The notes under the pieces were generated by a model. The model was not told where the DNA came from. It was given only the letters and a program-made list of their open reading frames with translations, and ran no database searches. From Mycobacterium vicinigordonae (GTDB taxonomy: Bacteria > Actinomycetota > Actinomycetes > Mycobacteriales > Mycobacteriaceae): a DNA stretch of 64,000 bases. Positions 7,163-30,590 of this stretch are shown here, in pieces. How positions within the stretch are numbered: position 1 is the stretch's first letter; every line of letters begins with the position of its first letter. The position numbers and the translations under genes are program-made. The stretch spans positions 2,232,001 through 2,296,000 of the forward strand of contig NZ_CP059165.1 of assembly GCF_013466425.1 (NCBI RefSeq), read 5' to 3'.

Positions 7163-7177
7163 GTGACATCATGTCAA
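7163..7177. promoter_or_regulatory. palindromic operator candidate, site 1 of 3 (molybdo-hydroxylase regulon)
   Basis: The sequence GTGACATCATGTCAA contains the perfect 6+1+6 palindrome TGACAT-C-ATGTCA. It lies in the 230-base divergent region between the LLM operon (start 7,079) and the amidohydrolase gene (start 7,310). The same core recurs at 30,576 and, with a changed centre, at 16,637. The nearest likely ligand is the TetR protein at 30,654. Confidence 0.7.
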
Positions 7178-7309
7178 TGATCAAGTTAAACATTCAGTAG
7201 AACGGTGGTGCACACTGTCTAGCATGTCGATCGTCCAGGTGAATGATCACCGCGCGCCGCGGTTCCGACGCCGTGCGCGTCGGGCTGTTCTCCGCGCTGC
7301 GGACGCGAA

Positions 7310-8542
7310 ATGAAACGGCTATTGATTTGTGGGGGCCACATCTTCGACCCGGTTGGCGGCACCGCGGCGTCCGGCGACGTCGTCATCGAGGGGGATCGAG
7401 TTGTTGACGTCGGATTGAATTTGGACGGGGATCAGGCCATCGATGCCAGCGGCCGTCTGGTGGTCCCCGGCTTCATCGACTGCCACGTGCACGTCATGCT
7501 CGATGACGTCGACACGCTGCGCCTGATCCAGACACCCTTCTCACTCAGGTTCTTTCAGGCTGCCCGCAACCTTGAGCGGACGCTGCGTGCCGGGGTCACG
7601 ACGGTACGGGATGCCGCGGGCGCCGACCTGGGTGTCAAGCAGGCGGTATCTACCGGTCTGATCGACGGTCCGGACATGCAAATCGCCATCGGAATGCTGA
7701 GCCAAACCGGGGGGCACGGGGATGAATGGATGCCGTCCGGGGAATGCATACACGGCTTGTGGCCGCCGCATCCGGGTCATCCGTCGACCGTCGTCGACGG
7801 TGCCGACGAAATGCGTCGCAAAGTTCGCGAACTCGTGCGCGCCGGAGCAGACGTCATCAAAGTCGCGACGAGCGGCGGGGTGATCAGTCCGCGCAGCGAT
7901 CCGCGGCGTGCGGAGCTGGCCGAAGAGGAGCTCGCAGTGATGATGGCCGAAGCGCGGGCTGCTCACGTGCATGTGATGGCGCACGCGCAAGGCACCACTG
8001 GGATCAAGAACGCGGTTCGGGCAGGGGTGCGCTCGATTGAACACGGTGTGTACCTCGATGACGAAGCGGTCGAGATGATGGTGCACAACGGAACTTGGCT
8101 GGTACCGACTTTGTCGGCGCCGCACGCCATTCTGCGGCAGGCAGACGCTGCGGGCGGAGTCCTCGAGACGACGCGAAACAAGGCTGCTTCGGTGCTTGAA
8201 GCTCACAAAGCCTCAGTGGCGCTTGCTTATTCAGCGGGAGTTCGCATCGCCATGGGCACCGATGCGGGCATTTCACGCCACGGTGACAACCTCCTTGAGT
8301 TGGAACTGATGAACGAGGTTGGGGTTTCGCCCGTTGATGCGCTACGAGCGGCCTCGACGTCGGCAGCCGAATTGCTCGATGGCGGGTCCGATATCGGCGA
8401 GTTGACTCCCGGTAAGCGGGCGGACTTGGTAATCCTTGACGGCTTGGATCTGTCAGTGCAGGAACTTGCGAAACGGGTGCGCACAGTGATCCATCGCGGT
8501 GTGGTCGTCCAGGACGCGAGCGGTGCAGTCTGTAGGCCGTAG
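7310..8542 (+). CDS. metal-dependent amidohydrolase (imidazolonepropionase/prolidase-like)
   Basis: The 410-residue product is a cytosolic amidohydrolase of the two-metal type. It shows the HVH pair at H59 and H61 in FIDCHVHV, a likely carboxylated lysine in GADVIKVATSGG, metal histidines in VMAHAQG and SIEHG, and the catalytic aspartate in MGTDAG. A composite beta-sandwich is formed by the first 50 and last 60 residues. It hydrolyses C-N bonds of amides or cyclic ureas in the family, and the substrate is unknown. It is divergent from the LLM-CoxMS operon and shares the palindromic operator region, so a C-N bond in the pathway substrate is a reasonable guess. Confidence 0.88.
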   Translation: MKRLLICGGHIFDPVGGTAASGDVVIEGDRVVDVGLNLDGDQAIDASGRLVVPGFIDCHVHVMLDDVDTLRLIQTPFSLRFFQAARNLERTLRAGVTTVRDAAGADLGVKQAVSTGLIDGPDMQIAIGMLSQTGGHGDEWMPSGECIHGLWPPHPGHPSTVVDGADEMRRKVRELVRAGADVIKVATSGGVISPRSDPRRAELAEEELAVMMAEARAAHVHVMAHAQGTTGIKNAVRAGVRSIEHGVYLDDEAVEMMVHNGTWLVPTLSAPHAILRQADAAGGVLETTRNKAASVLEAHKASVALAYSAGVRIAMGTDAGISRHGDNLLELELMNEVGVSPVDALRAASTSAAELLDGGSDIGELTPGKRADLVILDGLDLSVQELAKRVRTVIHRGVVVQDASGAVCRP

Positions 8543-8686
8543 CCGGCGCATGGCGGTATCGTGTGGACAGATGCGGCAGATATCCGCGTTCTCACTGGCA
8601 ATTTGTCCGCATAGTACGCCGTATCCGGCACAATATGCGTTGGACGATCTAGTGTTTGTAGGCGTTCATCGAGAGAAGGGCGCACC

Positions 8687-28157: not shown

Positions 28158-30544
28158 CGGGGCCTCCCGAGCGCCCCTGGTGATGCCTTCTGTGGCCGGC
28201 GCGCCGGGTGAAGAGATGCCGTGCTGTCAATGGCGGCGAGGATCCGCTCGGCGGTGACCGGAAGGGTGTCGACGATGTGAGCTTGTTCAGAGCCGATAGC
28301 GTCGCGGATGGCATTGGCCAGGGCTGCGGGCAGTGGGATGGCTCCGCCTTCCCCGGCCCCTTTGGCGCCATTGAGCGAAAAGGGGGAAGGGGTCTCGAGG
28401 TGGACGAGCTCGATAGGGGGAACATTGGCCGGCAGCGGAGGAAAATAGTCCCACATCGATTGGACGACTGGATGGCCGTCGTCGGTATAGGGCAGCTGCT
28501 CGTAGAGCGCCGCACCGATCCCTTGCACGGTGCTGCCGAAGACTTGGCCGGCGACAAGAGCCGGGTTGAGCTGAACGCCGCAGTCGTGTCCGAAGACCAA
28601 GCGTTGCACCAAGACCGCACCAGTGTCGCGTTCGATTTCGACGACTGCCGCGACCACGCCGAATGTGAAGGCGAAGTTCCGGGGATCGTAGGTATAGGTC
28701 GATTCGAGCCCGGGTTGGGTGTCGGGTGGCAAATCCAACGCCCGCCAAGCCGCCTCGGCGACCTCACCGACGGTGACCTGCGCGCCGGACGCCCCGCTGA
28801 AGCCGGCATCGGTGTCGTGGACCGTCGCCGAATCGGCGCTCTCCAGCATGTGTGCGGCGATGACACGCATGCGTTCCCGCAGTCCCCGCGAAGCCATCAT
28901 CACCGCAGATCCGGCAACCCCGGCGCCCCGACTGCCGCCACTGGCGTAGCCGGTGTACGGGCAAGACTGCGTGTCCCCGCACACCACCGTCACCGAATCC
29001 AGTGGAACACCGACTTCGTCGGCGGCGACTTGGGCCAGGACTGTCTCCAGGCCCTGACCCATCGGAGTCTGTCCGGTGAAAACCGTCACTGCAGCTGACG
29101 CGTCCATGCGCACCACTGCGCTGTCGTGACCTGGGTTGTTGATACCCATCATCGCGGCCGCCGCGGATGGACCGAAATTTGACGCTTCGAGGTAGCAGGC
29201 GGCGCCGACGCCGACCAGTCGCCCCGCGGCACGGGCTTGCGCGGCCTCCCGCTTGGTGCGCGTCCAGTCCACGCGATCGGCAACGAGATCGAGAAGTTCG
29301 CTGTAGTTGCCGCTGTCCAGGCACATCATCGCGGCGGTCCAATAGGGCAGTTCGTCGGGGCGCAGCAGATTTCGCCGCCGGATCTCCATCGGATCGACCT
29401 CGAGACGGCGCGCTCCCTCGTCGATCGCGCGCTCGACGGCGAAGGTGGCCTCGGGCTGGCCGAAGCCGCGGTAGGCCCCGATCGGAGTCTTGTTGGTAAC
29501 CACGGCCACCAGCTCACTGAGCGCGTTGGAGATTCGGTAGGGGCCCATCACCATGGCCGCTGTGACGACCCCGGACCCCGCTCCGGCCATGTAAGGCGTC
29601 GCCCCGCAATCAAGCACGACCGAGGCCCGCAGTCCGGTGATGGTGCCGTCCGCGTTGAGGCCGAGCTCGAGATCGACCGCGGTTCCCCGCCCGTGCACAG
29701 TTGCTGTGAACGCTTCGGATCTGCTCTCGATCCATCGCACGGGACGGCCCACGACCCGTGCGGCGAAAGCCACCAGGGTCTCTTCGATGTAGGCGCATGT
29801 CTTGTTGCCGAATGCGCCACCGACATCGGGGACCAGCACGCGCACTCGTCCCTCGGGAATCCGCAACGTGGCAGCGAGCGAAGCCCGGACTTGATGCAGT
29901 GCTTGTGTCGACGTCCACACGGTGACGGACTCGCCGCCGATGTCCCATGCGGCGCGCACTCCCCGGGTCTCCAGCGGGAGTCCGGCGACCCTGCCGCTGG
30001 TGTAGCGACCGGCAACGACCAGCGCCGCGTCCGCGAGGGCAGCCTGCGGGTCGCCGGCCTCAAATCGTGTGCGGGCGAAGACGTTGTCAGGCCAGTCGTC
30101 GTAGAGCAGTGGGCGGCTCTCGGCACTTGGCTCGACCACTGCGGGCAATCGATCGTAGGTGACCTCTACGAGTTCGGCGGCGTCCTCGGCCAGGTAGGGG
30201 TCGTCGGCGACGACGGCAGCAAGTGGCTCACCCACATAGCGGACCCGATCGCCGGCCAGGCACCATGTCGGTGCGCTGGCCTGCAGTTGTGCCGTCCACA
30301 TCATCGCCATCGGCTCGGTCGCGCAACGGACGTCCGCGCCGACAAGCACCGTGTGCACGCCGGGGGCCGCGCGAGCTTTGCGGGTATCAACGCGGATGCG
30401 TGCGTGCGGTTCGCGCGAGCGTACTACCACCAAATGGAGTTCCCCGGCGGCTTGCTCATCGGCGAGGTAGCTGCCTCCACCAGCGGCAAAACGCCGGAGT
30501 TTGATGCCCGGTGGGCTTTGACCGACCTGGCGCCCACTCGTCAT
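28154..30544 (-). CDS. CoxL-like molybdenum-binding large subunit (xanthine dehydrogenase family)
   Basis: The 796-residue catalytic subunit carries the family motifs GGAFGNK, GAYRGFGQPEATFAVER, GQTPMGQGLETVLAQ and KGAGEGGAIPLP, whose glutamate is the conserved base. The active-site loop AYRGFGQPE differs from the AYRCSFR of true CO dehydrogenase (form I) and from the AYRGAGR of form II, so CO is unlikely to be the substrate. The start is ATG 30,544, only 32 bases from a 15-bp palindrome. Its CoxM and CoxS partners are 24 kb away. The large subunit is grouped with DUF1028 instead, an unusual split. Confidence 0.92.
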   Translation of the reverse strand: MTSGRQVGQSPPGIKLRRFAAGGGSYLADEQAAGELHLVVVRSREPHARIRVDTRKARAAPGVHTVLVGADVRCATEPMAMMWTAQLQASAPTWCLAGDRVRYVGEPLAAVVADDPYLAEDAAELVEVTYDRLPAVVEPSAESRPLLYDDWPDNVFARTRFEAGDPQAALADAALVVAGRYTSGRVAGLPLETRGVRAAWDIGGESVTVWTSTQALHQVRASLAATLRIPEGRVRVLVPDVGGAFGNKTCAYIEETLVAFAARVVGRPVRWIESRSEAFTATVHGRGTAVDLELGLNADGTITGLRASVVLDCGATPYMAGAGSGVVTAAMVMGPYRISNALSELVAVVTNKTPIGAYRGFGQPEATFAVERAIDEGARRLEVDPMEIRRRNLLRPDELPYWTAAMMCLDSGNYSELLDLVADRVDWTRTKREAAQARAAGRLVGVGAACYLEASNFGPSAAAAMMGINNPGHDSAVVRMDASAAVTVFTGQTPMGQGLETVLAQVAADEVGVPLDSVTVVCGDTQSCPYTGYASGGSRGAGVAGSAVMMASRGLRERMRVIAAHMLESADSATVHDTDAGFSGASGAQVTVGEVAEAAWRALDLPPDTQPGLESTYTYDPRNFAFTFGVVAAVVEIERDTGAVLVQRLVFGHDCGVQLNPALVAGQVFGSTVQGIGAALYEQLPYTDDGHPVVQSMWDYFPPLPANVPPIELVHLETPSPFSLNGAKGAGEGGAIPLPAALANAIRDAIGSEQAHIVDTLPVTAERILAAIDSTASLHPARRPQKASPGALGRPR

Positions 30545-30575
30545 CGGTGCACTTCACGCTGTGCAGCCGCCATGT

Positions 30576-30590
30576 GTGACATGATGTCAC
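30576..30590. promoter_or_regulatory. palindromic operator candidate, site 3 of 3
   Basis: GTGACAT-G-ATGTCAC is a perfect 7+1+7 palindrome between coxL (start 30,544) and the TetR gene (start near 30,654). It is close enough to both starts to repress both. Confidence 0.78.

Follow-up and report, generated by a model that had tools for sequence, protein, structure and literature searches.

Can genes that lie apart on a mycobacterial chromosome be held under one regulator? This question is raised by a stretch of 64,000 nucleotides of Mycobacterium vicinigordonae (contig NZ_CP059165.1, positions 2,232,001 to 2,296,000; hereafter the window), in which the subunit genes of a molybdenum hydroxylase are split between distant operons and the palindrome GTGACA-N3-TGTCAC recurs at three divergent places. 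The three sites (operators 1–3, Table 1) very probably form the regulon of a TetR-family protein of the EthR branch, whose gene lies beside operator 3. This protein would bind the palindrome and repress the LLM operon with coxM and coxS, the amidohydrolase gene, the NmrA-like gene, xdhC, coxL with the DUF1028 gene, and its own gene. The operator would be about 39 bp long and lie over the −35 region, and the three-site layout would derive from one operon. From the locus one would obtain the likely regulator, operator and targets of a molybdenum-hydroxylase pathway.

Palindrome Copies in the Window and the Genome

The palindrome scored was GTGACA-N3-TGTCAC. The three positions given in a preliminary description of this DNA were confirmed, operators 2 and 3 being exact and operator 1 having one mismatch. 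Each copy was also found, as described there, in a divergent intergenic region (LLM/amidohydrolase, NmrA/xdhC and coxL/tetR), the third directly before the TetR gene. The perfect arms measured 9 bp in operator 2 (16635–16655), 6 bp in operator 3 and 5 bp in operator 1. The window held no further copy with at most one mismatch, in line with the earlier claim, and its four palindromes with two mismatches were all within long reading frames. At the two-mismatch level seven places were counted against a shuffle mean of 2.66. Since this enrichment is only mild, the case rests on the near-perfect copies.

The whole genome (6.27 Mb) did not contain many random copies: only two were exact, both in the window. 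With at most one mismatch there were eight places (the two exact ones and six with one mismatch, including operator 1), against four for the reversed control pattern. Five of the eight were outside the window, four inside stop-to-stop frames and one apparently intergenic (judged by eye), and they were dropped as extra targets because four of the five lie in such frames. A one-mismatch copy at C1:3285317 falls, by eye, on codons for the signal peptide of a ModA-like molybdate-binding protein. It was considered as a further target and is probably due to chance, because its bases seem to encode the lipobox. Two other one-mismatch copies, at C1:5723475 and 5728645, are 5 kb apart; one is apparently intergenic beside a KstD-like gene (by eye), and the other is in a reading frame.

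Conservation of the Sites in Relatives

Among 396 genomes of the genus, the TetR gene (threshold E ≤ 1e-45) was detected in nine, the window's own included, and coxL (threshold E ≤ 1e-250) in the same nine; M. intermedium was added from a further genome collection. Ten loci were compared, namely the window and those of M. europaeum, M. scrofulaceum, M. alvei, M. kyorinense, a metagenome-assembled Mycobacterium, M. sp. 852002-10029, M. intermedium, M. frederiksbergense and M. sp. ACS4331. At the protein level, records of the TetR protein also came from M. botniense, M. bourgelatii, M. confluentis, a Streptomyces and a Nocardia.

The window and its nine relatives (346 kb) gave 18 places with at most one mismatch, whereas 100 shuffles averaged 1.19 and never exceeded 5; four copies were exact, against 0.03. 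These figures are no p-value, because the relatives share descent and the trials are not independent. Among 180 half-sites of equal base composition, GTGACA ranked first over the same sequence with its 18 places; the next had nine, and the median was 0.

In five unsplit loci (M. kyorinense, the metagenome-assembled Mycobacterium, M. sp. 852002-10029, M. intermedium and M. frederiksbergense), a single run in the order LLM-SnoaL-hydrolase-coxM-coxS-coxL-SCP2-DUF1028 is divergent from TetR-amidohydrolase, and one palindrome with at most one mismatch lies between them. In the window, M. alvei, M. europaeum, M. scrofulaceum and M. sp. ACS4331, coxL is separate and has its own palindrome, and the LLM gene retains a copy. 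Among these split loci, DUF1028 moved along with coxL only in the window. The TetR gene is on the LLM side only in M. sp. ACS4331, on the coxL side only in the window and M. alvei, and on both sides in M. europaeum and M. scrofulaceum.

The palindromes are thus mostly kept in relatives together with the genes, a comparison that the preliminary description had proposed as a test: the LLM site was found in all ten loci and the coxL site in all five split loci, regardless of an adjoining TetR gene, and the NmrA/xdhC site was weaker (3/6). Sites lacking an adjoining TetR gene were the LLM/amidohydrolase site in the window and M. alvei, the coxL site in M. sp. ACS4331, and a site before mce genes in M. 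alvei. In the metagenome-assembled Mycobacterium and M. sp. 852002-10029, the TetR gene and then the amidohydrolase gene are followed by an xdhC relative, an order that favours counting xdhC in the set.

A leucine-type dehydrogenase gene and the bkd and paa genes accompanied the hydroxylase genes in all ten loci, in varying order. Because they do so in all nine relatives, the bkd and paa modules are not intruders and belong to the same travelling island. It had been proposed that the TetR protein co-regulates genes interrupted by these modules; the scattered set stood, as a prediction, and the interruption did not. The modules appear to have their own regulators, of the Lrp and PaaR types.

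The TetR Protein and Its Link to the Site

The protein encoded beside operator 3 scored 57.9 bits against EthR_C (cut-off 27) and 32.7 bits against TetR_N (cut-off 24). It has a TetR-type all-helical fold closest to EthR, and its identity to EthR structures is 27–28%. It was rejected as EthR itself, its gene being divergent from coxL and not from ethA; the genome also has, at 6,147,838, a different EthR-family gene (30% identical), which neighbours a gene for an EthA-like flavin monooxygenase. A palindrome with at most one mismatch was found 9–118 bp before the aligned gene start of all 12 TetR genes in the ten loci, so that a candidate operator adjoins the regulator's own gene in every case. 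The start codon of the window gene is uncertain (Table 1); at the position common to the relatives (30693 in the window) several coxL-side copies have CTG, and LLM-side copies have ATG or GTG.

Extended Operator and Probable Overlap with the Promoter

Oriented towards LLM, coxL or NmrA, the 18 sites displayed outer half-sites, with RAC at −10 to −8 in all 18 and GTT at +8 to +10 in 14. These are symmetrical and about 12 bp from the inner ones, which extends the operator to about 39 bp and suggests that it holds more than one dimer. Only one arm deviates from the palindrome: TTGACA stands for GTGACA on the arm facing LLM in 10/10 sites and coxL in 4/5, and facing NmrA in 0/3. TACG followed 18 bases past TTGACA in 13 of these 14 sites. 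TTGACA is the −35 consensus. The operator would therefore overlap the core promoter, which would explain the off base of operator 1 as part of a −35-like hexamer.

We propose that one or more TetR dimers bind the operator with its outer half-sites. Because this stretch includes what is likely the −35 element at LLM and coxL, the bound repressor would block RNA polymerase. A hydrophobic compound of the pathway would enter the EthR-type pocket and release the protein. The releasing compound should be a pathway intermediate, and would offer a handle on the substrate.

It is unlikely that the TetR protein reads the sites as an activator, or as a repressor at some and an activator at others. Some TetR-family proteins do activate, for example AtrA (PMC3511530; this and the other papers given here by PMC number are represented by excerpts), and in the window 31 bp separate the end of the coxL site, which has no −35-like arm, from the called start codon. 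At LLM and in four of the five split coxL genes, however, the site coincides with the likely −35 hexamer, and each of the five tested TetR proteins with a divergent gene no more than 200 bp away was a repressor (PMC3511530). The excerpt supports this 200-bp rule for divergent TetR genes and includes EthR and XdhR among its cases (PMC3511530).

A 37-bp extended pattern, AAC-N7-TTGACA-N3-TGTCAC-N7-GTTAC, was written from these sites, so that only its absence elsewhere is a test. In the 396 genomes it matched 12 places exactly and one with one mismatch, all in the nine genomes with the TetR gene, and the 387 other genomes had no place with two mismatches or fewer. Places with three mismatches occurred in 42 of these other genomes, a number similar to that of the genomes in which a reversed control pattern matched (about 35, counted by eye). 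Since the island is also absent from the other genomes, this restriction fits any island-borne reader. Operator 1 matches the pattern exactly, on the minus strand of the window; the LLM site of M. alvei is also an exact match, and neither has an adjoining TetR gene.

Likely Origin of the Three-Site Layout

The ancestral state would be one operon with one operator. When coxL separated from it, the regulator and its operator would have gone along as a duplicated cassette, and later losses would have removed one or other of the regulator genes. In this genome the LLM-side TetR gene would have been lost, and since operator 1 is still intact, it would now be under trans control. In the coxL tree the five split loci formed one group (100/100), and in the TetR tree a branch separated the four coxL-side copies from the rest (80/91; recovered in 89% of 200 bootstrap trees). 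The ten arrangements show how a single-operator operon can turn into a scattered regulon, with control likely passing to trans.

It was also considered that the TetR protein controls only its own promoter and immediate neighbour, the other copies in the window being remnants of rearrangement. The two relatives with a TetR copy at both main sites fit this, because operator 1 could then be the leftover of a lost local regulator. Remnants should decay, however, and operator 1 and the M. alvei LLM site are still exact over 37 bp; operator 2 is the most symmetrical of the three. This makes purely local control improbable.

In M. alvei a full extended operator was found at C1:2904121 (L097:7121-7135), before a yrbE-mce operon adjoining the island, the domains of which are MlaE, MlaE and Mce4_CUP1/MlaD. 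The mce and LLM promoters of this genome match over about 60 bp (49/60 identical); outside it, identity was 11/30 and 10/45. It seems that the promoter-operator block was copied to the mce operon. The Mce link hints that the substrate is lipophilic.

Points against the TetR Protein as Common Reader

Several results weigh against a regulon of this form. The NmrA site was present in three of the six loci with NmrA in view (the window, M. europaeum and M. scrofulaceum); in M. alvei, M. kyorinense and the metagenome-assembled Mycobacterium the NmrA gene lies after paaZ on the same strand, and its best upstream match had four mismatches. At the window coxL site both the TTGACA arm and the GTT half-site are missing. 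Neither operator 1 nor the coxL site of M. alvei yielded a promoter in a standard sigma-70 scan, so that the −35 assignment draws on position and one-sidedness. Support in the TetR tree is moderate and depends on one distant outgroup row. The PaaR-like gene was found in the same 6 of 118 genomes as the island, and the co-occurrence of TetR and coxL was therefore dropped as proof of the reader: the whole island, PaaR included, is inherited together, and co-occurrence does not single out the TetR protein.

Four distant TetR proteins from three genomes (37–49% identity) also belong here. L140 had no palindrome site, L141 had only a three-mismatch site upstream, and L142 had a one-mismatch site 113 bp downstream of the gene; in L139, whose neighbour is an EthA-like gene, a two-mismatch site precedes the aligned gene start by about 70 bp. 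This comparison is mixed and carries little weight. The EthR-like gene of L139, divergent from the EthA-like gene, has two TGAC-N5-GTCA palindromes 14 bp apart (L139:10369-10397).

On balance, the earlier proposal that this TetR protein reads all three sites is supported by the comparison with relatives, with repression as its presumed mode of action.

Other Candidate Readers

The least probable account is that another regulator reads the palindrome, either the PaaR-like TetR protein, the Lrp-type protein (Table 1), or a factor encoded elsewhere, for instance CRP. PaaR accompanies the island no less faithfully than the TetR protein, and operator 2 could at first be taken for a CRP site (TGTGA...TCACA). 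However, CRP sites have the form TGTGA-N6-TCACA. Operator 2 has a spacer of 7 and not 6, and operator 3 has no right TCACA. PaaR has its own palindrome upstream, of the TAACCGAnCnTTCGGTCGGTT type, near-perfect in five of seven loci and degenerate in two: the form TAACCGATCGTTCGGTCGGTT was found in the window and two relatives, with close forms in two more. The GTGACA palindrome had at least four mismatches upstream of PaaR in 7/7 loci and at least three upstream of the Lrp-type gene in 6/6, and it stood beside the EthR-like gene in 12/12 copies. The three proteins were thus rejected as readers by spacer, missing TCACA, different palindrome and mismatch counts.

In the window the conserved palindrome before the PaaR-like gene, TAACCGATCGTTCGGTCGGTTG, is at 21017–21038 and is likely the PaaR operator.

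EthR-Family Paralogues and a Possible Operator Code

A set of 24 other EthR-family TetR genes, 30–36% identical, was compared with the 12 TetR genes; many weaker matches fell outside the set. Within 230 bp upstream of these paralogues, the GTGACA palindrome with at most two mismatches was found in 0/24. Instead, TAGACA-N3-TGTCTA with at most one mismatch was present upstream of 21, exactly so in 19. Among the 16 choices of the two outer bases, GT fitted 12/12 TetR genes and 0/24 paralogues, and TA 0/12 and 21/24. The core GACA-N3-TGTC was exact in 12/12 and 20/24, against 95 of 1200 random 260-bp stretches of the paralogue loci. The recognition helix reads VARTAFYRHF (VPRTAFYRYF in the window) in the one branch and ISRASFYIYF in the P450-linked branch. 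As two branches of one family adjoin two versions of one palindrome, another reader is hard to reconcile with the data.

The paralogue palindrome, mostly CTAGACA-N3-TGTCTAG, lies between the TetR gene and a divergent, mostly P450, gene, and is likely an operator. In 19 of the 21 TAGACA paralogues the longest divergent frame had a cytochrome P450 string, and the divergent frames scanned were all above the Pfam P450 cut-off (4/4, one of them outside the 19).

A broader reading can be offered only tentatively, and we hold it somewhat short of probable. The core GACA-N3-TGTC would be fixed and the outer GT or TA set by the recognition helix (RTAFYRHF or RASFYIYF); the regulon would have grown by the copying of a promoter-operator cassette of about 60 bp, from one operator to up to three, surviving duplication and loss of the regulator and capturing an Mce importer in M. 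alvei. If so, a single repressor would govern both the import of a compound and its degradation. Because each of the two branches has its own palindrome, exchanging two bases would be a test of DNA recognition in this medically known family.

Comparison with Known Systems

The operator sequences of TetR and QacR differ from the GTGACA palindrome. According to the excerpts, the TetR operator is a 15-bp palindrome bound by one dimer, and that of QacR is a 28-bp palindrome bound by a tetramer (PMC4482099). The site described here is like the TetR operator in being a 15-bp palindrome with symmetrical half-sites, and unlike both in having a further pair of half-sites, some 12 bp outside the inner pair, which suggests that more than one dimer binds. 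In Mycobacterium tuberculosis, EthR is the repressor of ethA-ethR and binds as an octamer (PMC5403819); its motif is described as larger and more complex (PMC4482099), and its target genes are others. The palindrome at the window TetR gene is short and clean. XdhR of Streptomyces coelicolor represses xdhABC, with ppGpp as ligand (PMC6627660). By description, not by sequence, the proposed regulator is like XdhR in being a putative repressor of a molybdenum-hydroxylase cluster encoded beside that cluster. It is unlike XdhR, which belongs to purine salvage, since the large subunit does not pass the models for xanthine dehydrogenase and belongs to a catabolic island.

PaaR is distributed among Actinomycetes (PMC13186573). 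The island does have a PaaR-type TetR protein, but this is a different protein with a different palindrome, and would control paa and not the hydroxylase. The three sites were accordingly rejected as a PaaR regulon, the palindrome before PaaR differing from operators 1–3.

Among the matches listed, no description of a GTGACA-N3-TGTCAC regulon was found in a literature search whose coverage leaves out most subscription journals, and no paper on the TAGACA-N3-TGTCTA palindrome was found by title. In the excerpts of PMC6534649, the half-site words occur in primers only. The outer half-sites, the −35-like off base, the operator copy before the M. alvei mce operon and the TAGACA palindromes of the paralogues appear to be new, as read from the sequences.

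Genes of the Set and Their Neighbours

Table 1. Candidate operators, proposed target genes and regulator genes in the window.
Feature	Coordinates	Strand	Remarks
Operator 1	7163–7177		GTGACATCATGTCAA, one mismatch; between LLM (-) and amidohydrolase (+) genes; extended form 7151–7189
Operator 2	16638–16652		GTGACAGTCTGTCAC, exact; between NmrA (-) and xdhC (+)
Operator 3	30576–30590		GTGACATGATGTCAC, exact; between coxL (-) and TetR gene (+)
EthR-family TetR regulator, proposed reader	30654–31325	+	Start uncertain: TTG 30654, CTG 30693 or TTG 30714
LLM-class flavin monooxygenase	6084–7079	-	First gene of likely operon behind operator 1; Pfam Bac_luciferase
SnoaL-like protein	5645–6064	-	
Alpha/beta hydrolase	4798–5751	-	
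CoxM-type FAD subunit of molybdenum hydroxylase	3935–4801	-	
CoxS-type 2Fe-2S subunit	3357–3938	-	
SCP2-domain protein	2971–3522	-	
MobA-like NTP transferase	2394–2945	-	Probably for molybdenum cofactor; below NCBIfam cut-offs
Amidohydrolase	7310–8542	+	Behind operator 1; Pfam Amidohydro_1
Glu/Leu/Phe/Val dehydrogenase family protein	8687–9751	+	
Lrp-type regulator	9759–10229		
NmrA-like protein	15583–16581	-	Behind operator 2
XdhC/CoxI maturation factor	16723–17853	+	Behind operator 2
PaaR-like TetR protein	20330–21088	-	Frame probably starts too early; own palindrome at about 21017–21038
DUF1028 protein	27225–28157	-	Downstream of coxL
CoxL-type molybdenum-binding large subunit	28154–30544	-	Behind operator 3

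The large subunit was below the cut-off in all 13 listed NCBIfam models. It was rejected as a xanthine dehydrogenase (its 356 bits fall short of the 780 required for XdhA, NF043082) and as an aerobic CO dehydrogenase (475 against 991 bits for TIGR02416, and 540 against 950 for NF040766). The Glu/Leu/Phe/Val dehydrogenase gene is possibly transcribed by read-through from the amidohydrolase promoter.

Genes for an amino-acid dehydrogenase, a BKD-like complex and paa functions occupy 8687–15422 and 18189–27248 of the window. Together they could form a route by which an aromatic amino acid is converted to phenylacetyl-CoA and further; the amidohydrolase and the hydroxylase would act before it. The argument above does not rely on this assignment. 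The linker of the E2 protein (bkdC, 12466–14046) contains a tandem repeat of about 26 residues of the GEGEAKLGPPNEPGGSARLGGVGLRT type in several copies, and the matches of the relatives stop there.

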